Shown here piece after piece: positions 1,549 through 11,924 of a stretch of DNA of 33,260 bases; positions within the stretch are counted from its first letter, which is position 1, and each line of letters opens with the position of its first letter. A program made the translations under genes and the position numbers. The notes beneath the pieces are model-generated. The model saw only the letters and a program-made list of their open reading frames with translations, was not told the origin of the DNA and searched no databases. This DNA is from a virus: the IMG/VR virus record IMGVR_UViG_3300006737_000094, positions 1 through 33,260 of that record. One strand, 5' to 3'.

Positions 1549-1600
1549 TTATTTATTACTCTCTACTTAGCTTTCTTTGAAAGCAGAGAGTGATAAATAA
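1549..1600 (+). repeat. Intercistronic stem-loop, copy 1 (ACTTA type)
   Basis: The arms TTATTTATTACTCTCT (1549-1564) and AGAGAGTGATAAATAA (1585-1600) pair along 16 bp with one T-G wobble (T1557, G1592). A 5-nt bulge ACTTA follows, then the inner stem GCTTTC-TTT-GAAAGC. It shares bulge and inner-stem style with the copy at 3947-3999. Unlike the others, no gene starts directly behind it; 1601-1706 contains no supported reading frame. Confidence 0.8.
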
Positions 1601-1636
1601 CTTATAAAACAATAGGTTATCGACAATCTGTTTGGT

Positions 1637-1652
1637 GTGACATTTATGTCAC
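1637..1652. promoter_or_regulatory. Perfect palindrome, operator-like
   Basis: GTGACA-TTTA-TGTCAC is a perfect 6-bp inverted repeat with a 4-nt centre. The word GTGACATTT also occurs at 1522-1530 and 4363-4371. Short palindromes next to early promoters often bind repressors or activators, but no regulator can be assigned here. A transcription-factor half-site is the simplest reading; chance in AT-rich DNA is possible. Confidence 0.35.
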
Positions 1653-1687
1653 TGCTGATGAAAATCGACCAGCCCTTGATGAAGGGC

Positions 1688-1717
1688 TTGACAAGCTATG
1701 ATGAACTAATTAATAAT
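1688..1717 (+). promoter_or_regulatory. Candidate early promoter leading into stem-loop copy 2
   Basis: A perfect TTGACA (1688-1693) is followed after 18 nt by AATAAT (1712-1717), a 5/6 match to the -10 box that lies inside the left arm of the stem-loop at 1707-1758. A 7-bp hairpin AGCCCTT-GATG-AAGGGCT (1671-1688) sits just upstream. If the start point is about 7 nt beyond the -10 box, the transcript begins within the stem-loop, so promoter and hairpin may be alternative uses of the same bases. Confidence 0.4.
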
Positions 1718-1758
1718 CTTCTTAGTGAGTTCTTACGAACTAAGAAGATGATTAATTA
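1707..1758 (+). repeat. Intercistronic stem-loop, copy 2
   Basis: Outer arms TAATTAATAATCTTCTT (1707-1723) and AAGAAGATGATTAATTA (1742-1758) pair except for one A-G mismatch (A1715, G1750). Bulge AGTG is at 1724-1727; the inner stem AGTTC-TTAC-GAACT is at 1728-1741. CTGGAG and the ATG at 1774 follow. Confidence 0.9.
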
Positions 1759-1773
1759 AACTGGAGAAACACA

Positions 1774-1953
1774 ATGAAAGCAATAGCTTTATTTGGATTT
1801 ATGGTATCAACTATGTTGTTCCTACTCTGCATGCTGAAGGTAGCCACCGAAGGTGTTTTGTTTGGTTGGATTGTGATGGATATCACATTCCTGACAGTAA
1901 TCCCCCTTTCGGCCATTTGGTTTTTAGTTCATGCCTGTGAGCCGAGAAACTAA
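1774..1953 (+). CDS. Small membrane protein, 59 aa
   Basis: A 59-residue protein with two hydrophobic stretches (about residues 3-21 and 29-52) joined by a short loop, so probably a two-pass inner membrane protein with a short polar tail. CTGGAG stands 7-8 nt before the ATG. The TAA stop (1951-1953) is the first three bases of the next stem-loop. It is the first gene of the early plus-strand series. Early phage membrane proteins of this size often interfere with host functions or superinfection, but no family is recognised. Presence of a gene is likely from the binding site, the stem-loop cassette layout and the coherent hydrophobic pattern. Confidence 0.7.
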   Translation: MKAIALFGFMVSTMLFLLCMLKVATEGVLFGWIVMDITFLTVIPLSAIWFLVHACEPRN

Positions 1954-2003
1954 TTAATAATCTTATAGTAGAGTATCTTACGATACTATAAGATGATTAA
2001 TTA
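1951..2003 (+). repeat. Intercistronic stem-loop, copy 3
   Basis: Arms TAATTAATAATCTTAT (1951-1966) and ATAAGATGATTAATTA (1988-2003) pair except one A-G mismatch opposite G1995. Bulge AGTAG is at 1967-1971; the inner stem AGTATC-TTAC-GATACT is at 1972-1987. The stem differs from copy 2 (AGTATC/GATACT instead of AGTTC/GAACT) with matching changes on both sides. Confidence 0.9.
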
Positions 2004-2018
2004 AAACTGGAGGTTGAG

Positions 2019-2186
2019 ATGAGTAAAATTGAATTGTTGAATGCCGAGTTTGCTGACCTTGATGTGACCGTTTCGGTCAGTGCTGGTGGTGGCGGGTTTG
2101 ATATCTTTGAGAACTCCACTGGCAATCACATCACAACTTGTTGTGATTTGCAGGAAGTGGAAGCGACCTTAGATGGTTGCTTCTGA
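2019..2186 (+). CDS. Small unknown protein, 55 aa
   Basis: A 55-residue soluble, acidic protein with a glycine-rich centre (GGGG) and paired cysteines (CC) plus a third Cys before the C-terminal Phe. CTGGAGG precedes the ATG at a normal distance. It lies between two stem-loop copies (1951-2003 and 2190-2241), and its TGA ends 3 nt before the second. No known family is recognised. It is believed to be real because of binding site, cassette position and coding-like codons. Confidence 0.65.
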   Translation: MSKIELLNAEFADLDVTVSVSAGGGGFDIFENSTGNHITTCCDLQEVEATLDGCF

Positions 2187-2189
2187 GGT

Positions 2190-2241
2190 TAATTAATATC
2201 CTACAGGGTAAGTTCTTACGAACCCTGTAGGGTATTAATTA
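2190..2241 (+). repeat. Intercistronic stem-loop, copy 4
   Basis: The outer stem pairs 2190-2207 with 2224-2241, with one T-G wobble (T2199, G2232). The core is CCTACAGG with CCTGTAGG. Bulge GTAA is at 2208-2211; the inner stem GTTC-TTAC-GAAC is at 2212-2223. Further out, GGTTAA and TTAACC could extend the pairing. AAAGGAG and the ATG at 2271 follow. Confidence 0.9.
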
Positions 2242-2270
2242 TCTTAACCAGCCAACAAAGGAGATGTCTA

Positions 2271-2396
2271 ATGATTAAGAACATGGTGTGCGATCTTATT
2301 GACTTTGCAAAGACAGGTCAAAGTGACCTGTTGGTTTGTTCACTCAACCACTATCGGTTGCCATGTCCAAAATGGTTGTTGAAATTCTGCGGGTAA
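2271..2396 (+). CDS. Small unknown protein, 41 aa
   Basis: A 41-residue protein with four cysteines and a basic C-terminal half (YRLPCPKW, then LLKFCG at the end). AAAGGAG stands about 9 nt before the ATG. The TAA stop (2394-2396) is shared with the next stem-loop. A competing ATG at 2264 stops after four codons. No family is recognised. Its small size lowers certainty, but it repeats the arrangement of its neighbours: stem-loop, binding site, gene, stem-loop. Confidence 0.55.
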   Translation: MIKNMVCDLIDFAKTGQSDLLVCSLNHYRLPCPKWLLKFCG

Positions 2397-2446
2397 TTAA
2401 TAATATCCCTGTAGAGTATCTTGCGATACAGGGATATGATTAATTA
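2394..2446 (+). repeat. Intercistronic stem-loop, copy 5
   Basis: Arms 2394-2410 and 2430-2446 pair except an A-G mismatch (A2402, G2438); core ATATCCCT with AGGGATAT. Bulge GTAGA is at 2411-2415; the inner stem GTATC-TTGC-GATAC has TTGC instead of TTAC as loop. AGGAGA and the ATG at 2480 follow. Confidence 0.9.
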
Positions 2447-2479
2447 TCTTTTACCAACCGCCAACGATAGGAGAATATC

Positions 2480-2677
2480 ATGGCAAAGCGTACTGAAAAA
2501 ATTACCCAATCCTTTTCTGGCACCCGCTGGATGAAATTGCGGGACGGCTGGGAAGCCTTCCAAAAGGCAAAGGAGGACGGCAAGCCAATCCGTATCCTCC
2601 ACCCTTCGGGTAGCTTTAAGGTAATCCACAATGCTTCGGCATTGCCGGAAGGTGTGGAGGCTAGGCATAAAGCCTAG
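2480..2677 (+). CDS. Unknown small basic protein, 65 aa
   Basis: A 65-residue, lysine/arginine-rich soluble protein beginning MAKRTEK, with aromatic residues spaced through the first half (WMKL, GWEAF) and a hydrophobic strand near FKVIHN. AGGAGA precedes the ATG. It may bind nucleic acid given its charge, which is only inference. Its stop codon TAG lies in a short perfect hairpin CTAGGC-ATAAA-GCCTAG (2661-2677) rather than in a standard family stem-loop. The overlapping frames on the other strand are shadows. Confidence 0.75.
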   Translation: MAKRTEKITQSFSGTRWMKLRDGWEAFQKAKEDGKPIRILHPSGSFKVIHNASALPEGVEARHKA

Positions 2678-2770
2678 TCTCTGCAGGGCGAGGGATTGTC
2701 CCGGTTAAGCCAGTAACGCCCTAAAAATTAAGACGCTGGTAGGTGTGGTGAGCCTTCACTAGAAATCACC
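2661..2770 (+). other. Structured non-coding stretch between two small genes
   Basis: This gap lacks the usual stem-loop but is full of other complementary pairs: CTAGGC/GCCTAG (2661-2677), GGGCG/CGCCC (2686-2690 with 2717-2721) enclosing GGGA-TTG-TCCC (2692-2702), and GGTGA/TCACC (2747-2751 with 2766-2770). It could be a small RNA, a 5' leader structure or a degenerated cassette junction. It is not a tRNA: no T-arm or anticodon arm pattern is present. Confidence 0.3.
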
Positions 2771-2795
2771 ATTAACTTTGCAAAGGAGATAGCCG

Positions 2796-3023
2796 ATGGC
2801 TAAAAAGACAGTAAAGACTTCGATCCGGGTAAACCCGAAAGGGAACTACAACTACGGCTTCCATCGCCTGAATAGTGGATATCGCTTAGATATCCCCTAT
2901 GCTTCGGTGTCAGTCTTCGATGGTGGTAGCAATGCTACTGTGCGCCGTCCTACTAGTGGCCTACGGTTCATTTATGAGAATAACCGGAAGGGCAAGGTCA
3001 GAGTTGCCCATAACGTCGGCTAA
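2796..3023 (+). CDS. Unknown small basic protein, 75 aa
   Basis: A 75-residue protein starting MAKKTVKTS, rich in Arg/Lys, Gly, Tyr and Asn, without hydrophobic segments. AAGGAG precedes the ATG by 8 nt. The stop TAA (3021-3023) is the first triplet of stem-loop copy 6. Its start resembles that of the 65-aa neighbour (MAKRTEK), but the rest does not align by eye. A nucleic-acid or host-protein binding role is possible; nothing specific is recognised. Confidence 0.75.
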   Translation: MAKKTVKTSIRVNPKGNYNYGFHRLNSGYRLDIPYASVSVFDGGSNATVRRPTSGLRFIYENNRKGKVRVAHNVG

Positions 3024-3072
3024 TTAAATATCTGCTAGGTAAGTTCTTACGAACCTAGCAGATGATTAATTA
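3021..3072 (+). repeat. Intercistronic stem-loop, copy 6
   Basis: Core CTGCTAG (3032-3038) pairs with CTAGCAG (3055-3061). The outer TAATTAA/TTAATTA arms pair with an A-A mismatch and a T-G wobble (T3029, G3064). Bulge GTAA is at 3039-3042; the inner stem GTTC-TTAC-GAAC is at 3043-3054. GAGGAGAAAGG and the ATG at 3088 follow. Confidence 0.9.
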
Positions 3073-3087
3073 TCTGAGGAGAAAGGC

Positions 3088-3336
3088 ATGGATCGCAATA
3101 ACATACGACTTACCTATAAAGGCTATGAAATATCCATAGCCCAACATAGAGAGGGAGATAAAGTTGTCCTTTCTGAGATAGCTCTGAAAGAGGATGGTGA
3201 ATGGAAAACAGCTTTACAAGCTGGAGGTGCTATTGTAAATTTAGACTTTGGCAAAACGCTAGACGGTTTTGCTGGAGTACTCGGCTGTGTCATCTACTAT
3301 ATTGATGAAATCAAAGGGGAAGATTATGCTGGTTAA
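3088..3336 (+). CDS. Unknown protein, 82 aa
   Basis: An 82-residue, mildly acidic protein that reads like a small beta-rich fold: alternating polar/hydrophobic strands (IRLTYKGYEISIAQ, then KVVLSEIALK) followed by a hydrophobic helix (FAGVLGCVIYYIDEI). GAGGAGAAAGG lies upstream of the ATG. The 3' end overlaps the next gene by 11 nt, suggesting coupled translation with the GP88-like protein. No family is recognised. Confidence 0.75.
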   Translation: MDRNNIRLTYKGYEISIAQHREGDKVVLSEIALKEDGEWKTALQAGGAIVNLDFGKTLDGFAGVLGCVIYYIDEIKGEDYAG

Positions 3337-3949
3337 AGATGCGAAGACCTTCGGTGTTATCAGCACCAAAAATACAAAGATGGGTAGCACCACCTTTGCG
3401 ATTGATGCCTTTGCTTGCAAAGTTGGTGATAAACTTGCAAAGATCGAAGGAACACCATGCTTCTCTTGCTATGCAAGAAAGATTCAGAAGCTACGACCTT
3501 CGGTCGATCAAGGCTGGAAAACTAACCTTGCCAAGTGGGAACAATCTGATCCGAAGGATTGGATTAAAGCTATGGCTTTTCAGATCGAACGATACTGCTT
3601 CGATGGCTTTCACCGCTGGTTCGATAGCGGAGACTTACAGTCTGTTGAAATGCTGGATGCTATCTGTCAGGTAGCTAAAGCTACACCACAGATTAAACAC
3701 TGGCTCCCAACACAGGAAAGGGGTATTGTAAAACAATACAGCAAACCAATTCCCGATAATTTAATCATTAGAGTGTCGGCATCGATGATTAATGGTGACA
3801 AGCCTAGCTTTGACCATGCATCACAAGTCTTTTACAAAGTCGATCCGAAAGGCTTTGAATGTGGAGCAAGCAAGCGAGGCAATGCTTGTGGACCTTGCAA
3901 GGCTTGCTGGGATAAGTCGATAGACTTTATCAGCTATCCCAAACACTAA
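3326..3949 (+). CDS. GP88-like phage protein, 207 aa
   Basis: Resembles the phage 'gene product 88' family (function unknown). Features that fit: an early TPCFSCYARK segment (Cys 45 and 48), a middle segment with WFDSGDLQS and WLPTQE, and a C-terminal CGPCKACWDK followed by a terminal SYPKH. The clustered cysteines could bind a metal or an Fe-S centre, which is inference. The frame is open further up to 3269, but ATG 3326 has AGGGGA at the right distance and overlaps the previous gene by only 11 nt, so it is preferred. The TAA stop (3947-3949) opens stem-loop copy 7. Confidence 0.75.
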   Translation: MLVKDAKTFGVISTKNTKMGSTTFAIDAFACKVGDKLAKIEGTPCFSCYARKIQKLRPSVDQGWKTNLAKWEQSDPKDWIKAMAFQIERYCFDGFHRWFDSGDLQSVEMLDAICQVAKATPQIKHWLPTQERGIVKQYSKPIPDNLIIRVSASMINGDKPSFDHASQVFYKVDPKGFECGASKRGNACGPCKACWDKSIDFISYPKH

Positions 3950-3999
3950 TTAATATCTATCTACTTAGCTTCTATAGAAGCAGATAGATAGTTAATTAA
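3947..3999 (+). repeat. Intercistronic stem-loop, copy 7 (ACTTA type)
   Basis: Arms TAATTAATATCTATCT (3947-3962) and AGATAGATAGTTAATTA (3982-3998) pair fully if G3991 is bulged out. Bulge ACTTA is at 3963-3967; the inner stem GCTTC-TATA-GAAGC is at 3968-3981. Only copy 1 has the same bulge and GC-start inner stem. CTGGAGG and the ATG at 4012 follow. Confidence 0.88.
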
Positions 4000-4011
4000 C
4001 TGGAGGTTATC

Positions 4012-4230
4012 ATGGATAAATTTCGTACTGCACTTCTCGATCTTACAGTCTCCGAAGGTGGGACTGTTTACATGGAGGAGAGTAATGACTCAGCCATTAT
4101 TCTTTCTCCCTCCCAAATTCCTACAGTAATGCTGGCACTAAGCCAAGCATTAGTAAATAAGAAAGAGCAAGAGATGGCTGAAGGTCGGGAAGCGTTGCTT
4201 CAGAATTTAGTTTCTGAAGTTAGAGATTAA
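4012..4230 (+). CDS. Unknown protein, 72 aa (paralogue of 5462-5626)
   Basis: A 72-residue acidic protein. Its middle part, GTVYMEESNDSAIILS followed by QIPTVMLALSQAL, aligns by eye with GTVYLRDGENFIVVS and EIPSLMAELAKGL of the 54-residue product at 5462-5626. The two are therefore probably paralogues: a short beta hairpin followed by an amphipathic helix. The C-terminus is an additional charged helix (KKEQEMAEGRE). CTGGAGG precedes the ATG. No function is known to me. Confidence 0.75.
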   Translation: MDKFRTALLDLTVSEGGTVYMEESNDSAIILSPSQIPTVMLALSQALVNKKEQEMAEGREALLQNLVSEVRD

Positions 4231-4239
4231 CTTTATTTG

Positions 4240-4273
4240 CTACGGGGTGTTGCCTAACGGCAGCATCCTGTAG
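4240..4273 (+). other. Strong RNA hairpin in a gene-free stretch (4231-4497)
   Basis: CTACGGGGTGTTGCC-TAAC-GGCAGCATCCTGTAG pairs along 15 bp with three G-T wobbles, so it is stable only as plus-strand RNA. The C-G closed TAAC loop recalls the C(TTAC)G loops of the stem-loop family. The remaining gap holds TTGACA...TGTCAA (4306-4325), GTGACATTT (4363-4371), CGGCT-ACGGG-AGCCG (4411-4425) and TGCT-GCGT-AGCA (near 4449), but no supported gene. It may be a structured non-coding RNA or leader. No T-run follows, so a classical terminator is unlikely. Confidence 0.4.
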
Positions 4274-4497
4274 TATAATAATGTCTCTATCATACATAAA
4301 TAATTTTGACATGCCATTTTGTCAATGGCTAGAAGGTGAGCGACATCTTTGATCGAAGCAAAGTGACATTTGCAAAACAACGTCAGACGCAAGTGCGAAG
4401 CAAATCTTGTCGGCTACGGGAGCCGTTAGGGGCTATTTGTGAAGGTTATGCTGCGTAGCAAGTAGCACCATCCGCACTCTAACAATGGAGAAAGGCT

Positions 4498-4638
4498 ATG
4501 AAAAAAATAAAACAAAGAAGGATTGAGGCGCATGCCTTGAGCTTGCCACAGTTCAAGCGGCAGGTTGTTAAGTCTAAGAAGACTTACATTCGGAAACCTA
4601 AACACAAACAATCTGGAGGTAATTACTGTTATATATAG
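4498..4638 (+). CDS. Small very basic protein, 46 aa
   Basis: A 46-residue protein dominated by Lys/Arg (MKKIKQRRIEAHA at the start, KSKKTYIRKPKHKQ later), suitable for binding nucleic acid. GGAGAAAGG precedes the ATG. The last seven codons and the TAG stop (4636-4638) lie in the left arm of the following stem-loop, so that structure would form only when ribosomes are absent. No family is recognised; reality of the gene is moderately supported. Confidence 0.5.
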   Translation: MKKIKQRRIEAHALSLPQFKRQVVKSKKTYIRKPKHKQSGGNYCYI

Positions 4639-4672
4639 TGGAGTTCTTACGAACTATATATAGCAGTAATTA
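4620..4672 (+). repeat. Intercistronic stem-loop, copy 8
   Basis: Arms 4620-4634 and 4658-4672 pair with one T-G wobble opposite G4663; core TTATATAT with ATATATAG. Bulge AGTGG and inner stem AGTTC-TTAC-GAACT follow the family pattern. The ends are TAATTACTG/CAGTAATTA instead of TAATTAAT/ATTAATTA. CTGGAGAAAGG and the ATG at 4687 follow. Confidence 0.88.
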
Positions 4673-4686
4673 TCTGGAGAAAGGCA

Positions 4687-4896
4687 ATGGAGTACGAAGT
4701 AACAGTATACCGGACAATGGTACAAAAAGTAACTATTGTAAAAGATAGTCCCATCCCGTTGTCTAATGAAATAGCAATAATTTTAAAAGAGGAGGCCGAA
4801 GACGAAGCTGCTGAGATGTATGACTACGAATGGACAGATGTATCATCTGACATAGAATATACTTGGACTGGAGTCGAACGAAAGAAGCAGCTATGA
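4687..4896 (+). CDS. Unknown acidic protein, 69 aa
   Basis: A 69-residue protein with an N-terminal beta-like part (YEVTVYRTMVQKVTIVK) and a strongly acidic helix (LKEEAEDEAAEMYDYEW). CTGGAGAAAGG sits before the ATG. The stop TGA overlaps the next ATG in the arrangement ATGA, so translation of the two genes is probably coupled. It opens a run of about fifteen tiny overlapping genes. Acidic early proteins can mimic DNA, but that is only speculation here. Confidence 0.75.
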   Translation: MEYEVTVYRTMVQKVTIVKDSPIPLSNEIAIILKEEAEDEAAEMYDYEWTDVSSDIEYTWTGVERKKQL

Positions 4897-5138
4897 AAAA
4901 GATTATTCATGTGAACCAACACATCATTCGAGATAATCGCAAGAATGATACAAGAAAGCCGCCACTAACTTGCAAGACAAGCAAAGATAATATCTATGCT
5001 AAAGATATTATTATTGATGGGCCATGTAGGATAGTTTATAATCCTGATAAACCTTTGTCTTGTGGTGCCCATGTTTGGATTGAAACAGAGAGTGAGATTA
5101 CTGTAGTGGGCAAAGCCCAGAAATGGAGTGATTTATGA
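4893..5138 (+). CDS. Conserved-looking phage protein, 81 aa
   Basis: An 81-residue protein starting MKKIIHVNQHIIRDN and containing PPLT, then KDIIIDGP and KPLSCGAHVWIETE. I recognise this pattern as a widespread, uncharacterised phage protein, especially in marine phages; the function is unknown. The frame extends upstream to 4863, but ATG 4893 overlaps the previous stop (ATGA) and is preferred. The next gene starts inside its stop codon (5135). Confidence 0.75.
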   Translation: MKKIIHVNQHIIRDNRKNDTRKPPLTCKTSKDNIYAKDIIIDGPCRIVYNPDKPLSCGAHVWIETESEITVVGKAQKWSDL

Positions 5139-5284
5139 GCCACAAGGCTAACGATATCCTTCGGGAAAATCTTTTTGAAGAAGTTCTGAATGAACTTCTT
5201 GAAAAGCATCCGCATGCCTATCTTCCTTGGATTGAAGAGGTTGCGGAGAGGGTTACACTCAAACGACTAGAGGAAATGGAATGA
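5135..5284 (+). CDS. Small helical protein, 49 aa
   Basis: A 49-residue protein that is almost wholly charged amphipathic helix (LFEEVLNELLEKH, then WIEEVAERVTLKRLEEME). It is linked to its neighbours by ATGA overlaps at both ends (5135-5138 and 5281-5284), which is strong evidence of a real, translationally coupled gene. No family is recognised. Confidence 0.65.
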   Translation: MSHKANDILRENLFEEVLNELLEKHPHAYLPWIEEVAERVTLKRLEEME

Positions 5285-5469
5285 TTGATGACATCCAAGG
5301 ACAAGTATATCATAAGCTTGAAGAAGTTTTGATTAATACAATCAAGACTTGGGGACTTAGCGACCGAGATAGTAAGGCACATGCAGAATTAATTCTTGAC
5401 TTTGGACATACCGGAGTGCATGATCTTGCTATGGAAGTAAACGAAATTTTGGAGAACGAGTATGCTTAA
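5281..5469 (+). CDS. Small acidic protein, 62 aa
   Basis: A 62-residue acidic helical protein (MIDDIQGQVYHKLEEVL at the start, MEVNEILENEYA at the end) that starts in the stop of the previous gene and overlaps the next by 8 nt. Its composition resembles that of its upstream neighbour, but no clear homology is visible. Function unknown. Confidence 0.65.
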   Translation: MIDDIQGQVYHKLEEVLINTIKTWGLSDRDSKAHAELILDFGHTGVHDLAMEVNEILENEYA

Positions 5470-5626
5470 AGCTGAAGTTACTGATACCGGAACTGGAACA
5501 GTCTACCTTCGGGATGGTGAAAACTTTATTGTTGTTAGTGCTTGTGAAATACCAAGCCTTATGGCAGAACTTGCAAAGGGACTTGAAGAATTTCGATCTA
5601 ACATAGAATGGGAGTGGAAAATATGA
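5462..5626 (+). CDS. Unknown protein, 54 aa (paralogue of 4012-4230)
   Basis: A 54-residue product with GTVYLRDGENFIVVS and EIPSLMAELAKGLEEF, which aligns by eye with the product at 4012-4230. A tandem-duplication history with later separation, or two related cassettes gained separately, would both explain it. The start overlaps the previous gene by 8 nt, and the stop overlaps the next ATG (ATGA at 5623-5626). Function unknown. Confidence 0.65.
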   Translation: MLKAEVTDTGTGTVYLRDGENFIVVSACEIPSLMAELAKGLEEFRSNIEWEWKI

Positions 5627-5781
5627 TTGCCAATCAACCATACAATAGGTATTCTCAGATCGACTCTGAGACTGCTGCTTACATTTGCCTTGTCGCTAAC
5701 GTCGAAGACGTAAGAGACATCTCACTGATGGATATAAATACTTTTATGACTGACATGGAAGATTGGTACAAAGATGTATAA
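5623..5781 (+). CDS. Small acidic protein, 52 aa
   Basis: A 52-residue acidic protein (YSQIDSETAAYICLV near the start, DMEDWYKDV at the end). GGAG in GGGAGTGG about 8 nt upstream may serve as binding site, and ATGA coupling to the previous gene supports it. The next gene overlaps its end by 8 nt. No family is recognised. Confidence 0.6.
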   Translation: MIANQPYNRYSQIDSETAAYICLVANVEDVRDISLMDINTFMTDMEDWYKDV

Positions 5782-5863
5782 AAATCTGTTTATTGTTATA
5801 GCGTTATCCTTCTGCATGGTACTACTTACTATGTATACTCAATCACTACTGGGGTTAGACTAA
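5774..5863 (+). CDS. Tiny membrane peptide, 29 aa
   Basis: A 29-residue peptide, MYKNLF followed by about 18 hydrophobic residues, forming one membrane segment. It sits tightly between two coupled genes: its start overlaps the previous gene by 8 nt, and its last base is the first base of the next ATG. Without that arrangement it would be too small to call. Possible roles are unknown. Confidence 0.45.
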   Translation: MYKNLFIVIALSFCMVLLTMYTQSLLGLD

Positions 5864-6045
5864 TGGAAAGTTACTGCGAAGTTTACGACTTCACTTCAAT
5901 ACGTTCTGCTGTGCTTGAAGCAAAAGGAACTTGGACTATGGAAGATCAAGTGCGAGTAGATATGTTGGAGGAGGGATTGAACCCACATTCTGTATCAGAT
6001 GTGAACCTGTATTGGATCGACATACTTAAAAACTATGGAGGATAA
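5863..6045 (+). CDS. Unknown small protein, 60 aa
   Basis: A 60-residue protein (MESYCEVYDFTSIRS at the start, NLYWIDILKNYGG at the end) with an ATG sharing the last A of the previous stop (TAATG). Its end contains GGAGG, which forms the ribosome binding site of the next gene at 6050. No family is recognised; the tight packing makes it likely to be real. Confidence 0.65.
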   Translation: MESYCEVYDFTSIRSAVLEAKGTWTMEDQVRVDMLEEGLNPHSVSDVNLYWIDILKNYGG

Positions 6046-6049
6046 TTCT

Positions 6050-6250
6050 ATGAAAATAGAATATCGCCGTCGCAGTGACGGCATGGTAAACAAGTGGAAG
6101 CAGGTTATGGCTTCCTCTCTCGACAATGATCTCTATGAAGAGATCATGGAAAGTGGGAATAAGTTCCTTGATCGCCCGGTGTGGGTGGTCGAGGATGTTC
6201 TCACTGAGAACGAATACCAATACGGAGTAAAAAAGAAAAAGAAAAAATGA
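6050..6250 (+). CDS. Unknown small protein with lysine tail, 66 aa
   Basis: A 66-residue protein (MKIEYRRRSDG at the start, then EEIMESGNKF, RPVWVVEDV) ending in six lysines. ATG 6050 is chosen over ATG 6035 because GGAGG (6037-6041) stands at the proper distance for it. The lysine tail is written by an A-rich stretch (around 6230-6247) and could be slippery. The next gene starts within the stop (ATGA). Confidence 0.65.
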   Translation: MKIEYRRRSDGMVNKWKQVMASSLDNDLYEEIMESGNKFLDRPVWVVEDVLTENEYQYGVKKKKKK

Positions 6251-6423
6251 AAGGCTTGACTTTTCTTTTTATATTAGTTATCTTGAATGGGTGCCTTCCA
6301 CTGACAATCATGTCGGTGGGTGGCTCCATTTATGACAGGTATGAAAAGAAAAAAATAGAAGAAAGATTAGAACAACTTGAAAAGGAAGAGAAAGAAAATG
6401 CTAGACCAATTCTACAACACTGA
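6247..6423 (+). CDS. Single-pass membrane protein with charged tail, 58 aa
   Basis: A 58-residue protein: an N-terminal hydrophobic segment (LTFLFILVILNGCLPLTIM, about residues 4-22) followed by a highly charged helix (YEKKKIEERLEQLEKEE). Either a one-pass membrane protein with a cytoplasmic or periplasmic coiled coil, or a lipoprotein with a weak lipobox at LNGC. It overlaps the DUF932-like gene by 26 nt. It could be a spanin-like or host-takeover membrane protein; neither can be shown. Confidence 0.6.
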   Translation: MKGLTFLFILVILNGCLPLTIMSVGGSIYDRYEKKKIEERLEQLEKEEKENARPILQH

Positions 6424-7267
6424 CCGAGAAGTATTTTTCAAGGTAGACGAAGAGCCTGTTGTTGGTAGCTGGACAAGAACACCCGCTAAAGGCAAACGAA
6501 TGCTGCGAAAGCAGGACACCGGAGAATACCTTAGTATTGTGGGTGACGGCTATCGGACAGTGGAGAACGAAGAAGTTCTCATGCCTCTTCAAAAGGCTAT
6601 GATTAATTACTTTGATCCCGCTGTGCTGGAGAGCGTAGAGATTAATGATACAATGGGCTATCGTAAAAGTGGGCTTATCACTTGGTCAGAGTATCGTTTT
6701 CCTGAACTTGCAAAAGCTATTGAAACATCCAGTGGTCATCGTACTAATCTGATGCTTCGATATATTTTTAAGAATGGATACGATGGTAAGCATGGTATGA
6801 CCTTGTATGCTGGAGAGATTGATGTATTCTGTACCAACGGAATGATCACTGGTAGTTATGATAAATTTACTAAACGTCATACATCTAGCTTTGATTCAGA
6901 TGACTTTGTATTAGCTTTTGAACAAAGCATGGCAAAGTATCATGAGATTGCCGACCAGTATCAGCGATGGGCAGATACAAAAGTTGATCCAGAAAAAGTT
7001 GCAGAAGTTTTAGAAAAGTTTACTGGCTCTGAAGAGTACAAGCCCAATCGTTTAGCAACGAAGTTGTGGTCACAGTTTATTGATGAACGAGAGGTAAGAG
7101 GCAGTAATGTCTTTGCTTTTGTTTCTGCACTTACGCATTATGCTAGTCATAATGATAACCGTTTCCCTGTTACTCGATCTGGTTCTTCTGATACCTTGTA
7201 TAAGAGGCAGGAAAGAGTGCAGGGTTGGTTACGTTCTAAAGCTTTTAAAGAATTAGAAGCGGCGTAA
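6398..7267 (+). CDS. DUF932-like phage/plasmid protein, 289 aa
   Basis: Belongs, by pattern, to the DUF932 phage/plasmid-like family (function unknown; often found near recombination or anti-restriction genes). The recognisable parts are GDGYRTVENEEVLMPL, the central LRYIFKNGYDGKHGM, and DVFCTNGMITG, followed by a helical C-terminal half. A TTG at 6377 would add seven residues, but ATG 6398 has GGAAGAG upstream and is preferred. Its last base overlaps the next ATG (TAATG). It is the first large product of the early region. Confidence 0.75.
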   Translation: MLDQFYNTDREVFFKVDEEPVVGSWTRTPAKGKRMLRKQDTGEYLSIVGDGYRTVENEEVLMPLQKAMINYFDPAVLESVEINDTMGYRKSGLITWSEYRFPELAKAIETSSGHRTNLMLRYIFKNGYDGKHGMTLYAGEIDVFCTNGMITGSYDKFTKRHTSSFDSDDFVLAFEQSMAKYHEIADQYQRWADTKVDPEKVAEVLEKFTGSEEYKPNRLATKLWSQFIDEREVRGSNVFAFVSALTHYASHNDNRFPVTRSGSSDTLYKRQERVQGWLRSKAFKELEAA

Positions 7268-7458
7268 TGAAACTATATACTACAGACGAGGACTTTGATA
7301 TCTTGCATCAGGCAGTAGATAAAGCTCGTAAGAATGCAAAAGATATTAAAGTTCCTCGTCAATCTTTGTTGAATGTTCTAATGGATCATTCACATTTTAT
7401 AACTGCATTAAAACAATATGGTGAAAGCGTTGAATACCCTAATGAAAAGGATAAATAA
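7267..7458 (+). CDS. Unknown small protein, 63 aa
   Basis: A 63-residue helical protein (DFDILHQAVDKARKN near the start, KVPRQSLLNVLMDH in the middle) with TAATG coupling to the DUF932-like gene and a 2-nt gap to the next. It recalls small phage proteins of unknown function; no family can be named. Base composition turns visibly more AT-rich from here to about 9633. Confidence 0.65.
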   Translation: MKLYTTDEDFDILHQAVDKARKNAKDIKVPRQSLLNVLMDHSHFITALKQYGESVEYPNEKDK

Positions 7459-7460
7459 CT

Positions 7461-7760
7461 ATGCTTGAAACTAAATTAGATTTAGGAAAAATAAATGCAC
7501 AGATTGAAATTCATACGGATGGTTTATATATTGCTGTATATCTTAATACTAGTGATAGTATTAAAACTATCTGTAAACTTTCTTTAGATGATTTAGTCCT
7601 AGATTATGTTAAAACTTCTACACATAATAATTTGATATCTGAAAAAGATTTTTCAGAATTATATACAGAAATTAATTCAAGTCTTATGTTGCTTGAAGAA
7701 TTAATTGGTGATGATTTCCCAGACTCAGGATTTACAGATGACTTTTCAACTACTCACTAA
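7461..7760 (+). CDS. Unknown acidic protein, 99 aa
   Basis: A 99-residue acidic protein with an N-terminal beta-like half (AQIEIHTDGLYIAVYLN) and a helical C-terminal half (ELYTEINSSLMLLEELI). No strong ribosome binding site is visible; it begins 2 nt after the previous stop and is probably read by the same ribosomes. It overlaps the next gene by 23 nt. Unknown function. Confidence 0.65.
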   Translation: MLETKLDLGKINAQIEIHTDGLYIAVYLNTSDSIKTICKLSLDDLVLDYVKTSTHNNLISEKDFSELYTEINSSLMLLEELIGDDFPDSGFTDDFSTTH

Positions 7761-8049
7761 TCTAAAGTTTTTAGTAAAAGAATTATCTAATCAAGAGATT
7801 AGACACATTGATCCTTTAAGAATGAGGATAACTTTACAAGGACTAATTAATGCAGAAGAGAAAAGAATGACTGAGTATAATACAGGATTTATTCCTGAAA
7901 TATTATGTGATATCAATGACTTAATAGATTTAGCTAATGATATTATGGTAGATAAACATAGTAAAAACGAACAGTTATTTACATTAGCTTTATCTTTATC
8001 ACTATTAAAAGAAAAAATATCAAAGGAATTTATTGGAGATGTTAAGTGA
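7738..8049 (+). CDS. Unknown helical protein, 103 aa
   Basis: A 103-residue, mostly helical protein (LTNLKFLVKELSNQEI at the start; DINDLIDLANDIMV in the middle). The frame is open up to 7705, but ATG 7738 has CAGGA upstream and reduces the overlap with the preceding gene from 56 to 23 nt. Very AT-rich codons. No family is recognised. Confidence 0.6.
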   Translation: MTFQLLTNLKFLVKELSNQEIRHIDPLRMRITLQGLINAEEKRMTEYNTGFIPEILCDINDLIDLANDIMVDKHSKNEQLFTLALSLSLLKEKISKEFIGDVK

Positions 8050-8209
8050 ATTAGAATTAGCTAAAATAGAAATTAAAGAACTTAACAAACAACTTTATAC
8101 ACAATATAAAGATAATGTGGAGTTAAGAAAACAAATAGAATATTTAAAAGCTAAGTTAGAAAGTTGCGAAAATCTTTTAGAACAACTATCAGTAATTAAA
8201 CTAAAGTAG
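8039..8209 (+). CDS. Coiled-coil peptide, 56 aa
   Basis: A 56-residue protein that reads as one continuous heptad-rich helix (MLSELELAKIEIKELNKQ, then ELRKQIEYLKAKLESCENLL), so a coiled coil, possibly dimeric with one cysteine. It overlaps the previous gene by 11 nt, and GGAG is near the start. A binding partner is unknown. Confidence 0.6.
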   Translation: MLSELELAKIEIKELNKQLYTQYKDNVELRKQIEYLKAKLESCENLLEQLSVIKLK

Positions 8210-8216
8210 GTATACA

Positions 8217-8291
8217 ATGATTATAGAACTAATGATAATTAAAGTAGTTATTATAGGTAGTTTTTATTTAATAGGAGCAATAGCTTCATGA
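8217..8291 (+). CDS. Tiny membrane peptide, 24 aa
   Basis: A 24-residue, almost wholly hydrophobic peptide (MIIELMIIKVVIIGSFYLIG) whose stop TGA overlaps the ATG of the cell-wall hydrolase (ATGA at 8288-8291). Position directly before a secreted hydrolase suggests a link to lysis, for example a small holin-like or pinholin-like peptide, but the size makes the call weak. AGTAGG upstream is a modest binding site. Confidence 0.35.
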   Translation: MIIELMIIKVVIIGSFYLIGAIAS

Positions 8292-8770
8292 GAATATTTA
8301 TAATAGGATTTATTATTCTTGTGTTATTTAAATCTACTGTTGCTAAATCTGAAGATTTAGAATATGATAAACAGTTAGACTGCATGGCAGAAGCATTATA
8401 CTTTGAGGCAAGAGGTGAGTTATTCTCTGGAATGTTAGCAGTTGCTACAGTTATTATGAATAGAGTAGATCATCCTTCCTTCCCGTCAAACATTTGTGAT
8501 GTTGTACATCAAGGAAAATATTGGAAAGGTAATCCTGTTAGAGATAAATGTCAGTTTAGTTATTACTGCGATGGCAAACCAGAAAGTTTTTTAGATGAAT
8601 ATGCCCTGCGGGAATCTTATCAAGTAGCATCCTTTGCTATGGAAGGAGCTAGGCTACATCACCTTAATACAGCATTATATTATCATGCAGTTTACATTAA
8701 CCCTAACTGGCCTTATAAAAAATTAATGGTTTTAGGTCAACACATATTTTATGGAGTAGAAGATGGCTAA
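8288..8770 (+). CDS. SleB-like cell wall hydrolase with signal peptide, 160 aa
   Basis: Peptidoglycan-cleaving enzyme of the SleB/Hydrolase_2 type, which acts on the cell wall. Residues 1-20 form a signal peptide or signal anchor (a charged start, then IFIIGFIILVLF). The catalytic-domain hallmarks are AEALYFEARGE (the family's key Glu near residues 40-44), VIMNRV, CQFSYYCDG (residues 88-96) and YYHA followed by NPNWP near the end. It overlaps its neighbours by 4 and 8 nt. It probably acts as endolysin exported by the host Sec system. A second, unrelated wall enzyme is at 24544-24927 on the other strand. Confidence 0.85.
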   Translation: MRIFIIGFIILVLFKSTVAKSEDLEYDKQLDCMAEALYFEARGELFSGMLAVATVIMNRVDHPSFPSNICDVVHQGKYWKGNPVRDKCQFSYYCDGKPESFLDEYALRESYQVASFAMEGARLHHLNTALYYHAVYINPNWPYKKLMVLGQHIFYGVEDG

Positions 8771-8966
8771 GAACTTATGGGACAGAGATAGAAAAAGTAT
8801 TTACAAAGGACTTGTAAAAGAGTATCAACAAGAAGGGTATGATATTAAAGAGGCTAGGCGATTGGCTAGTCAGGAGACAGATGAGATCATGGCTGATAAA
8901 AAGTTTTTTGTAGATACACTCATTGAAGTAGAAGAGGAGGAAGCAGGTGAAGATCGAACTTATTAA
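8763..8966 (+). CDS. Unknown charged protein, 67 aa
   Basis: A 67-residue, charged, helical protein (KGLVKEYQQEGYDIKEAR near the start) with a very acidic C-terminal part (IEVEEEEAGED). GGAG stands before the ATG. It overlaps the hydrolase by 8 nt and thyX by 20 nt; its acidic codons GAAGAGGAGGAA double as the thyX ribosome binding site. Unknown family. Confidence 0.7.
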   Translation: MAKNLWDRDRKSIYKGLVKEYQQEGYDIKEARRLASQETDEIMADKKFFVDTLIEVEEEEAGEDRTY

Positions 8967-9633
8967 TTCTATGGGTGACGATCTAACTGTAGTTAATGCA
9001 GCTAGAGTTTCTTTTGATAAAGAAAGTGAGTGGGAAAATATAACTCCCGCTGGGCCTATAGAACATTTGCTTACAGAAAAAGATATAAAGTTAATAAAGT
9101 ATCTTGCAAAGCATAATCACTTCACACCCTTTACTCATTGCACTATTACAATGAGAGAGACTGTACCTATCTTTGTAGCCCGTCAAAGATTTAAACATAC
9201 TATAGGCTTTAGTTATAATGAAGTCAGTCGGCGCTACGTTAATGACACTCCAAAGATTTATACACCGGACGCATGGAGAGCTAAAGCAAATAATGCAAAG
9301 CAGGGTAGCAGTGAAGAGACAATTGATATAAACCCTGTGGGAGAAAGACCCCCACCTATGGTGGACATCTATAAACTTTCTATAAAAAATTCTTTATGGA
9401 CATACGAAGAGCTACTACGCAAAGGTGTCTGCCCAGAGCAAGCTAGGATGGTGTTACCACAATCTATGTACACAAGTTATTATGTAACTGGCTCTTTATA
9501 TGCATGGGCAAGAGCCTACAATTTAAGAAGTGATCCCCATGCACAAAAAGAAATCCAAGAGATAGCATCTCAATGGAATGAAATTTGTTTAACTTTATAC
9601 CCAACTTCATGGAAGGCATTAACAAATGACTGA
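8947..9633 (+). CDS. thyX: FAD-dependent thymidylate synthase ThyX, 228 aa
   Basis: Makes dTMP from dUMP with methylene-tetrahydrofolate, FAD and NADPH, supplying thymine nucleotides for phage DNA. The ThyX signature RHR-x7-S appears as RQR-x7-S (Arg 79, Gln 80, Arg 81, Ser 89), followed by YNEVSRRYV. Also typical are HFTPFTHCTIT upstream and ARMVLPQ in the C-terminal half. Length is normal for the family. The start is GTG 8947, with GAGGAGG just upstream; no ATG fits. The second residue of the signature being Gln instead of His is a variant worth noting. The next gene starts inside its end (9626). Confidence 0.93.
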   Translation: MKIELINSMGDDLTVVNAARVSFDKESEWENITPAGPIEHLLTEKDIKLIKYLAKHNHFTPFTHCTITMRETVPIFVARQRFKHTIGFSYNEVSRRYVNDTPKIYTPDAWRAKANNAKQGSSEETIDINPVGERPPPMVDIYKLSIKNSLWTYEELLRKGVCPEQARMVLPQSMYTSYYVTGSLYAWARAYNLRSDPHAQKEIQEIASQWNEICLTLYPTSWKALTND

Positions 9634-9793
9634 TAGATGGCTAGTTCAAGTAGCAGGTAATGATGACTTAGAAAAGTCATTATCATTTCAAAGTAAAAAA
9701 GAAGCTGAAGAATTTATTGAAGAACGAGTTGACATGGTACGTCACTTGGGATATGATCCCGATGAGACATACTATTTAATACCCATACAGTAA
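9626..9793 (+). CDS. Small unknown protein, 55 aa, with promoter in its 3' part
   Basis: A 55-residue protein (RWLVQVAGNDDLEKSL at the start, KEAEEFIEERVDMVRHLG in the middle). It overlaps thyX by 8 nt. Its 3' part contains a good promoter (9729-9757), and its end contains the left arm of stem-loop copy 9, with the TAA stop in the bulge. So this gene carries the control signals of the replication operon inside its own coding sequence. No family is recognised. Confidence 0.65.
   Translation: MTDRWLVQVAGNDDLEKSLSFQSKKEAEEFIEERVDMVRHLGYDPDETYYLIPIQ
9729..9757 (+). promoter_or_regulatory. Sigma70-like promoter for the replication operon
   Basis: TTGACA (9729-9734), 17 nt, TATGAT (9752-9757): a perfect -35 and 5/6 -10 box. 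Transcription would start near 9764, giving a leader that includes the whole stem-loop 9774-9820 before the primase-helicase gene. It lies inside the upstream gene, so the match could be chance, but its position fits well. Confidence 0.5.
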
Positions 9794-9820
9794 GTTCTAC
9801 GAACTGTATGGGGATTAAAT
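9774..9820 (+). repeat. Intercistronic stem-loop, copy 9 (distant copy)
   Basis: Arms ATTTAATACCCATAC (9774-9788) and GTATGGGGATTAAAT (9806-9820) pair except an A-G mismatch (A9781, G9813). Bulge AGTA and inner stem AGTTC-TAC-GAACT have a 3-nt loop. It lies 5 kb from the other eight copies, before the first replication gene. AGAGGAG and ATG 9833 follow. Confidence 0.85.
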
Positions 9821-9832
9821 AGAGGAGATAAT

Positions 9833-11485
9833 ATGGAACGAACTAACGCTAAATTTGTACGACATACATCATGTGATCACTGTGGATCGTCGGATGCCAA
9901 TGCAGTCTACGATGACGGTACTACATGGTGTTTTTCTTGTGAAACTTTCGGAAGTGAGGATAACATGGAAGCGGCACAGTCGCCCATCAAAAATGTTTAT
10001 ACATCTAATCTATCAAGCGGTCAGATCACTGGTATACCAGATCGTAAGATATCTGCCGATACTTGTAAGGCTTACAACGTAACCACTCTTACCAACAACG
10101 GCACAATCTTCAAGCATATCTACCCGTATTACGATGACTCCAATACGCAGATAGCTACAAAGATTCGTACCGTACAAAACAAAGGCTTTTTATCTGAAGG
10201 TAATATGTCTGGCGCTGTACTGTTTGGTCGCAACAAGTTCTCTGCTAAAGGTAAATATATTACCATTACTGAGGGCGAGCTTGACGCTATGGCGGCATAC
10301 CAAATGTTTGGCAGCAAGTGGCCTTGTGTGTCAGTCAAGTCTTCTAGCTCTGCACTGGCAGACTGCAAGAAAAGTTTTGACTATCTTAATTCTTTTGAAA
10401 ATATTATTATCTGCTTTGATAATGATGCTGCTGGACATAAGGCAGCAGAGAAAGTTGCTGGCTTGTTTGAGCCACACAAATGTAAGATTGTTAATCTTAG
10501 TCAGTTCAAGGATGCATCTGATTATCTACGAACTGGAAATCAAGAAAGCTTTGTTCGCACATGGTGGGCAGCAGAGCCATATACCCCTGCAGGTATTATT
10601 AATCTTGATGCCCTTGGAGATACACTGTATGAAGAAGACTTCTGTGAGACAGTACCTTATCCTTGGACGGGACTCAATAAAAAGATATACGGTATGCGTA
10701 CTGGTGAGTTACTAACTTTTACTTCAGGTTCAGGTATGGGTAAGAGCAGTATCATTCGAGAGTTAATGCATCATATTATGAAAACCTCTACCGATAACAT
10801 CGGTGTTCTTGCTTTAGAAGAGAGCATTCGTAACACTGCGCTAAACATCATGTCTGTTGAGGCAAGTCAACGACTATACATCAAAGAGGTGCGGGATACT
10901 TTCTCTATTGATCAGCTACAAAAGTGGCAGAATGCTACCGTAGGTACAGGACGTTTCTTTGCCTTCGATCACTTCGGTTCTATCTCTAACGACGAGATAC
11001 TGAATCGAGTGCGCTTTATGGCAAAGGCTCTTGATTGTAAATGGATTATTCTTGATCACCTGTCGATCCTTGTTTCTGGACAAGAGGATGGTGATGAACG
11101 TCGATCTATTGATATTCTAATGACAAAGCTTCGATCTCTCGTAGAGGAGACAGGAGTTGGTTTGTTGTTGGTATCTCACCTTCGTAGAGCATCAGGCGAT
11201 AAAGGTCATGAAGATGGACGAGAGGTATCTCTTGCACACCTCAGAGGTAGCCAGAGCATTGCTCATCTAAGTGATGGTGTGATAGCCTTGGAGAGAAACC
11301 AACAAGAAGAAGACGAGACGCTTGCCAATACCACTGTGGTTCGCATTCTAAAGAACAGGTACACAGGTGATACTGGCATTGCTACCTACTTGTATTACGA
11401 CAAAGATAGTGGTAGGATGTCTGAGATATCCAACCCCTTTGATGTAAATGAGGATGACGAGGAGGAAGGTTTTGACAACTACTAG
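9833..11485 (+). CDS. Primase-helicase (T7 gp4/Twinkle type), 550 aa
   Basis: Primes lagging strands and unwinds the fork. N-terminal zinc finger with Cys 14, 17, 33 and 36; TOPRIM parts TEGELDA (146-152) and CFDNDAAG (194-201); RecA-type helicase with Walker A GSGMGKSS (299-306), Walker B KWIILDHLS (403-411) and SHLRR (448-452), then LRGSQSIAHLSDGVIALER (470-488). The C-terminus is acidic and ends in an aromatic residue (NEDDEEEGFDNY), as in T7 gp4, where this tail binds the polymerase. It has its own promoter and stem-loop and a good AGAGGAG. Arginine is mostly written with CGN codons here. First gene of the replication operon. Confidence 0.95.
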   Translation: MERTNAKFVRHTSCDHCGSSDANAVYDDGTTWCFSCETFGSEDNMEAAQSPIKNVYTSNLSSGQITGIPDRKISADTCKAYNVTTLTNNGTIFKHIYPYYDDSNTQIATKIRTVQNKGFLSEGNMSGAVLFGRNKFSAKGKYITITEGELDAMAAYQMFGSKWPCVSVKSSSSALADCKKSFDYLNSFENIIICFDNDAAGHKAAEKVAGLFEPHKCKIVNLSQFKDASDYLRTGNQESFVRTWWAAEPYTPAGIINLDALGDTLYEEDFCETVPYPWTGLNKKIYGMRTGELLTFTSGSGMGKSSIIRELMHHIMKTSTDNIGVLALEESIRNTALNIMSVEASQRLYIKEVRDTFSIDQLQKWQNATVGTGRFFAFDHFGSISNDEILNRVRFMAKALDCKWIILDHLSILVSGQEDGDERRSIDILMTKLRSLVEETGVGLLLVSHLRRASGDKGHEDGREVSLAHLRGSQSIAHLSDGVIALERNQQEEDETLANTTVVRILKNRYTGDTGIATYLYYDKDSGRMSEISNPFDVNEDDEEEGFDNY

Positions 11486-11924
11486 AGTAAAGAAAAAGTT
11501 TGACAGGCAGCTATACAATATGGTAAATCAAAAGAGTGTAGATGCTGGCAAAAAATACTTAAAGTCTATTGGACATAGAATTACATCTACCAAAGAAGAT
11601 ATGAAGGTAGATATTCGTAGCTCCAAAGACGGCAAGCAGTATCTCACAGAGGTTGAGGTCAAGCTAGTGTGGGACGGCGAGTGGCCCAAGCACTGGAAAG
11701 ATATTCAATTGAGTGAGCGCAAGCGGAGACTTATTGAGTATGCAAAGAATAAGGAAAAAGATTTATGTTTTCTTATCTTTAATAAAAGCTTTACATCTGC
11801 TTGGAAAATTGATAGTAATATACTAGATGACTGTGAACTAAAGGAGGTTCCCAACAGGTTTGTATCCAAAGGAGAATACTTCTTTATTGTTCCAACTGAA
11901 AAGGCTGAACTTATTACATTATGA
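11472..11924 (+). CDS. Probable PD-(D/E)XK-fold nuclease, 150 aa
   Basis: A 150-residue basic protein. Asp 47 (KVDI) followed by TEVEVK (Glu 62, Lys 64) matches the PD-(D/E)XK nuclease core, and the region around it has the expected strand pattern. The rest (WPKHWKDIQLSERKRRL) is helical and basic. A TTG at 11472 is chosen because GGAGGAAGG lies just upstream; an ATG at 11448 would put the binding site inside the gene. It sits between primase-helicase and polymerase and overlaps polymerase by 4 nt. A junction-resolving or DNA-degrading role is inferred. Confidence 0.65.
   Translation: MTTTRVKKKFDRQLYNMVNQKSVDAGKKYLKSIGHRITSTKEDMKVDIRSSKDGKQYLTEVEVKLVWDGEWPKHWKDIQLSERKRRLIEYAKNKEKDLCFLIFNKSFTSAWKIDSNILDDCELKEVPNRFVSKGEYFFIVPTEKAELITL

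Follow-up and report, generated by a model that had tools for sequence, protein, structure and literature searches.

The early region of the viral record IMGVR_UViG_3300006737_000094 carries a series of hairpins at its gene borders that, judged from their sequences, are a conserved, covarying RNA structure family. We analyzed the whole record, 33,260 nucleotides (nt) in length and referred to here as the window, in which an earlier note had pointed out nine intercistronic inverted repeats. The hairpins are an RNA-level cis element at the gene borders of the early transcript. By analogy with bacteriophage T7, they may be sites at which an RNase specific for double strands, for instance RNase III of the host, processes the early mRNA, a reading to which we assign a probability of roughly 45%.

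All nine inverted repeats are real and lie where they had been reported, save that the last one starts at 9772 rather than 9774. For each of them, all 200 dinucleotide shuffles folded less well (z −5.3 to −7.9). The fold energy by itself is unexceptional, as other 55-nt stretches of the window fold equally well, and family status rests on the common design and on covariation, not on folding energy. The stems had been described as variable, with both arms changing together, and this is borne out by an alignment of 52 distinct copies in which the pairs of the named structure were counted. Paired cells amount to 90.6%, with shuffles giving 57.7%; for covariation, the scores are 0.215 ± 0.016 in shuffles and 0.805 in the real alignment, a value that 0 of 500 shuffles reach. 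When the partner is slid by 1–3 columns, pairing falls to 34–54% (maximum 53.6%). Because these 52 copies had been picked for having stems, we also ran two tests free of this bias. In the first, the apical 19-mer GTAGAGTATCTTACGATAC was taken wherever it occurs in the examined loci, irrespective of the stem beyond its three closing pairs; in its 49 distinct contexts, pairs 4–8 are Watson–Crick in 245 of 245 instances and G·U in none, and arms swapped between copies pair at 52%. The 33 distinct contexts of AGTTCTTACGAAC, at least two of which are evidently unrelated to the family, gave 310 Watson–Crick, two G·U and 18 unpaired positions among 330 pairs. Arm complementarity is also kept in relatives: at the orthologous site directly upstream of the primase gene, 15 distinct hairpins change on both arms together over a range of primase identity of 60–100%.

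The view of the nine copies as one family holds, although they comprise two designs, types A and B, and copies extend beyond this genome. From the top down, type A consists of a loop of UCUU or shorter, a GU/AC step, a tandem RA/GA mismatch (R, purine), about 11 strict Watson–Crick pairs, a mismatch-prone position that is often A·G, and an AT-rich base. The hairpin measures about 18–20 base pairs (bp) plus the apical pairs or internal loop, i.e. about two helical turns. Its apex, with the pattern RA-GU-N3/4-AC-GA and invariant A, G, C and G columns, is the most conserved part of the element. According to the earlier note, the copies have nothing in common but their AT-rich ends and inner loop. 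These are indeed shared, but so are features of the stem, in which the 5′ arm is strand-biased (about 86% pyrimidine at pairs 7–10) and a mismatch recurs about 11 pairs below the apex, at pair 12, which is unpaired in 24 of 49 contexts. G·U pairs are nearly absent from pairs 1–10 of type A stems, where they are rarer than expected of an RNA helix.

An alternative fold of the type A copies, with a 5′ bulge and a GUUC/GAAC apex, was rejected. It is feasible in 90 of 92 copies but 2–6.9 kcal/mol worse, the 2×2 RA/GA loop being favored by this amount in 90 of 90 cases; it shows almost no paired change (two cells), and variants such as GTAGAGTTCTTACGATAC break its pairing. The bulge and inner-stem fold is retained only for type B and possibly for other variants. 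In type B, a 5-nt 5′ bulge (ACUUA) accompanies an inner stem of the GCUU(U)C/GAAAGC type, and the related contigs hold 15 distinct copies of this design, the outer arms of which covary, as do the arms of type C. At least four apex designs other than type A (types B–E; e.g. in L145, L168, L170, L183 and L128) occur with a comparable stem at comparable gene borders.

In the window, all nine copies lie on the plus strand. A covariance model built from the type A copies (R1) recovers all seven of them at E 2.8e-7 or better, and the type B copy at 1549 at E 2.6e-5; the other type B copy, at 3947, was missed by this type A model. Hairpin 1 (type B, 1549–1600, 34.6 bits) lies in the noncoding leader ahead of the first early gene. 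Hairpin 2 (type A, 1707–1758, 67.2 bits, E 1.4e-13) is upstream of the open reading frame (ORF) 1774–1953, the stop codon of which forms the first three bases of hairpin 3 (type A, 1951–2003, 70.6 bits), and this is followed by a Shine–Dalgarno (SD) sequence and ORF 2019–2186. Hairpin 4 (type A, 2190–2241, 64.4 bits) is located between ORFs 2019–2186 and 2271–2396, and hairpin 5 (type A, 2394–2446, 62.3 bits) begins with the stop codon of the latter, upstream of ORF 2480–2677. Likewise, hairpin 6 (type A, 3021–3072, 63.5 bits) begins with the stop codon of ORF 2796–3023, upstream of ORF 3088–3336, and hairpin 7 (type B, 3947–3999) with that of its preceding ORF (3947–3949), upstream of ORF 4012–4230, so that four copies in the window (1951, 2394, 3021 and 3947) start exactly at a stop codon. 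Hairpin 8 (type A, 4620–4672, 42.3 bits) has a 3×2 apical internal loop (GGA/GA) and precedes ORF 4687–4896, and hairpin 9 (type A, 9772–9822, 51.7 bits) is directly upstream of the primase-helicase gene (9833–11485). All eight window copies that directly precede an ORF have an SD sequence and a start codon downstream, with the SD sequence outside the hairpin.

Pattern scans of viral contigs returned 42, 99, 61 and 4 stretches, and 105 distinct arm/apex combinations are listed from related uncultured marine phage contigs. These contigs come from metagenomes, with some redundancy among them. Arm plus apex sequence defined a distinct copy in the counts, and sequences from kin are not independent. 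A covariance search of related phages had been proposed as a check, and R1 gave recurrent hits with compensatory changes, at 1–8 copies per record, in 30 of 35 related viral records, most of the 30 carriers having been fetched for containing the motif and the five non-carriers chosen as primase relatives. Within every carrier record the copies share one orientation. They mostly cluster in the early region, frequently with one more ahead of the primase gene, and gene maps place small, variable early genes between them, with a few genes in common (c0, c2 and c1). An SD sequence and start codon occur no more than 80 nt downstream of 79 of 92 copies, compared to 13 of 92 on the opposite strand. 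A stop codon at the stem on the upstream side (75 of 92 copies, versus 56 of 92 on the opposite strand) is unusable as a strand test, because an AT palindrome gives TAA both ways. Stem similarity is higher among copies of one genome (0.53) than across genomes (0.37; 0 of 2000 permutations), suggesting that copies multiply or become homogenized within a genome.

With one of the patterns, 68 distinct viral matches formed strong hairpins after folding, as opposed to five matches in host genomes. We rejected an origin as a host-genome element: in a scan of host contigs (68 stretches), the five that fold well, among 67 distinct matches, all lack the family design, and R1 run with stricter filters over 289 sampled alphaproteobacterial genomes gave no match. 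Identity as intrinsic terminators was also rejected, given that only 9 of 80 stems are followed by an 8-nt stretch holding at least five T and that a terminator scan lists none of the hairpins. Strong promoter-like sites are found upstream of 11% of copies and 1.3% of controls, largely at leader copies, and the idea of a promoter–stem-loop cassette was set aside, the enrichment of TTGACA stemming largely from the leader RNA motif GCTTGACA. The suggestion that the family has its own design and may be undescribed still stands. At the Rfam gathering threshold the window gives only a tRNA and ten related loci give no family, and neither DNA searches of cultured phages nor R1 on 11 cultured relatives found a copy. 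The open-licence subset of PubMed Central yielded no earlier description, which is not proof of absence.

The element is always found on the coding strand, where it spans the border between two genes: it begins at the stop codon of a small gene, or close to it, and stops shortly ahead of the ribosome-binding site of the following gene. Its single orientation, the downstream bias of SD sequences and start codons, and its strand-asymmetric features (the RA/GA apex, the mismatch that is often A·G, and the pyrimidine-rich 5′ arm) argue for an RNA rather than a DNA element. Since the genes are co-directional and packed, we infer that the early region is read as a single polycistronic transcript. 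This long early mRNA would be cut in or near each hairpin, most simply by host RNase III, and cutting would yield mono- or oligocistronic mRNAs, the upstream product having a base-paired 3′ end and the downstream product a short, open 5′ leader. If each copy acts alone, a small gene could be gained or lost in the early region along with one copy. We favor T7-type processing because the hairpins resemble T7 RNase III sites in length, intercistronic place, number, strand and early clustering, and we also count for it that hairpins flank a conserved leader RNA (see below) on both sides.

Several observations weigh against RNase III processing. The enzyme needs no sequence-conserved apex (RAGU...ACGA), the presence of which implies other or additional recognition. 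The scarcity of G·U pairs is stricter than expected of an RNase III substrate, and in type A the 2×2 internal loop of the preferred fold is symmetric, unlike the asymmetric internal loop of T7 R1.1, with type B having a 5-nt 5′ bulge. Furthermore, a search of 17 carriers with PF14622 detected no phage RNase III, so that the enzyme would have to come from the host. Neither the apex conservation nor the scarcity of G·U pairs is accounted for by RNase III alone, and both favor an additional reader. A phage-encoded factor might read the RA/GA apex one helical turn above the mismatch, cut or bind at the early borders and free the leader RNA, although we consider this improbable. If it were true, early genes would be plug-in modules and the hairpins the cis half of a phage-specific processing or regulon system.

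The main rival to processing is an operator, in which a phage or host RNA-binding protein would read the RA/GA apex and one turn of perfect helix with no cutting, and would control translation or stability of the early genes as a regulon. The invariant apical columns fit this reading, as do the semi-conserved pyrimidines of the 5′ arm, and a possible partner can be named from its occurrence. This is c0 (2480–2677, plus strand), a 65-amino-acid basic protein and core early gene of the hairpin carriers: 25 of the 30 carrier records have it, and all five related non-carriers lack it. The co-occurrence is weak evidence, however, because an unrelated protein, c2, tracks the lineage just as c0 does, and the AlphaFold2 model of c0 is of moderate confidence (predicted local distance difference test score, pLDDT, 75), with no informative match to its fold. 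Given also that the SD sequence is not part of the hairpin where a window copy precedes an ORF, and that several quite different apexes (types B–E) at the same positions are awkward for one protein, we regard an operator as rather unlikely. A passive role, whereby hairpins block exonucleases and uncouple translation of neighboring cistrons with neither cutting nor a dedicated protein, would suit strong stems without a U-tract placed between a stop codon and an SD sequence; it requires neither the conserved apex, nor the exclusion of G·U pairs, nor the conserved mismatch position, and seems unlikely to us.

Two further explanations operate at the level of DNA. Palindromes acting as mobile cassettes or recombination borders (cf. 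attC and the promoter–stem-loop cassettes of T4) could shuffle early genes, in line with the highly variable gene content between hairpins, the near absence of G·U pairs, and the greater likeness of stems within a genome, by which copies spread or homogenize. We find this improbable in view of the single orientation per record and the tight link to a downstream SD sequence; moreover, neither the A·G-prone mismatch position nor the RA/GA apex is self-complementary as DNA, promoter-like sites accompany only the small fraction of copies given above, and no recombinase was identified, though no systematic search for one was made. Gene shuffling could itself be a by-product. Polymerase template switching at quasi-palindromes, rather than selection, might keep the arms complementary, and would account for perfect Watson–Crick arms with few one-sided intermediates. 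It is very improbable that this explains the family, since the pair-12 mismatch is kept in about half of the copies, a single-position T·C mismatch is maintained in several contigs, and apex and location are conserved; such a mechanism would not hold elements before start codons.

The leader RNA is present in the window in a short version (1601–1706, plus strand; 106 nt, fold z −2.1) between hairpins 1 and 2, with the core GATGA...TGATGA...CTTGACA...TGATGA. In related phages, the first and second hairpins are separated by a noncoding stretch of about 200 nt (e.g. L128:6677-7044(-), L163:4819-5185(+) and L257:7009-7376(-)), in which the motifs TCATCC...GGATG and GAYGA...TGAYGA...CTTGACA...GAYGA (Y, pyrimidine) are invariant over 27 distinct core forms. 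No Rfam family matched it at the gathering threshold in the window or the ten related loci. On a rough alignment, the core hairpin flanked by GAYGA and TGAYGA shows some covariation, and RNAalifold finds little consensus structure apart from the TCATCC/GGATG hairpin, for which reasons we do not consider the leader structure established. Elsewhere in the early region, 269 nt without a called gene (4229–4497, between ORFs 4012–4230 and 4498–4638) fold strongly (z −3.6) and include a long hairpin with a UAAC loop near 4233–4280; this fold prediction makes a further structured RNA possible. Operator-like palindromes are repeated upstream of early genes at 1519–1542 (TGTGACATTTTAGTCA), 1637–1656 (TGTGACATTTATGTCAC) and 4302–4320 (TTGACATGCCATTTTGTCAA).

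The window encodes, besides the T7-like primase-helicase, a family A DNA polymerase (11921–13585), a ThyX-type thymidylate synthase and a ribonucleotide reductase. Its closest cultured relatives are distant pelagiphages, the primase being 49% identical to its counterpart in HTVC115P and the terminase 38–39% identical to those of HTVC023P and HTVC027P. Because the same hairpin array sits in a sister contig of 56,002 nt, the window is likely to be an incomplete genome.

The family adds a structured RNA that is absent from Rfam, has many natural compensatory variants and comes so far only from uncultured marine phages. The hairpins are a concrete means of finding early-gene borders in such phage genomes. 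They also offer a natural mutant library for probing what RNase III or another factor recognizes, and a model for how phages gain early genes without disturbing the expression of their neighbors.

Among known systems, the early RNase III sites of T7 (R0.3–R1.3) are imperfect hairpins of about 20 bp that lie between early cistrons on a polycistronic transcript, occur several times per genome and keep structure more than sequence. In all these respects the hairpins described here are alike. They differ in being one covarying family with a conserved apex, a mismatch position, and an AT base that often carries a stop codon. Intrinsic terminators and palindromes resembling repetitive extragenic palindromic (REP) sequences or bacterial interspersed mosaic elements (BIME) are likewise intergenic hairpins near stop codons; unlike these, the present hairpins lack a U-tract and have a fixed apex, and no family member was among the host-genome pattern matches. 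T7 R1.1 is itself a model RNase III substrate (PMC4858673, PMC6121014).

The earlier comparisons with T7, T4-type phages and mycobacteriophages are valid only by analogy. The present element does not generally include a promoter, and it lacks the fixed start-associated sequences of mycobacteriophages. As summarized in a later article, the promoter-early stem-loop (PeSL) cassettes of T4-type phages also place stem-loops at the borders of small, variable early genes and are tied to gene turnover (Arbiol et al. 2010, cited in PMC4177764); compared with that account, our hairpins have no general promoter, the 11% of copies with promoter-like sites (1.3% in controls) being largely leader copies. 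In cluster K mycobacteriophages, the start-associated sequence (SAS) is a fixed 13-bp sequence, and the extended form (ESAS) has a fixed 17-bp arm consensus per subcluster (PMC3203893). The SAS 13-mer is not found in the window at 0–1 mismatch, with one chance-level match at two mismatches. Like SAS and ESAS, the hairpins are phage-restricted inverted repeats just upstream of the starts of non-structural genes, in one main orientation; unlike them, they have arms that differ copy by copy and covary.

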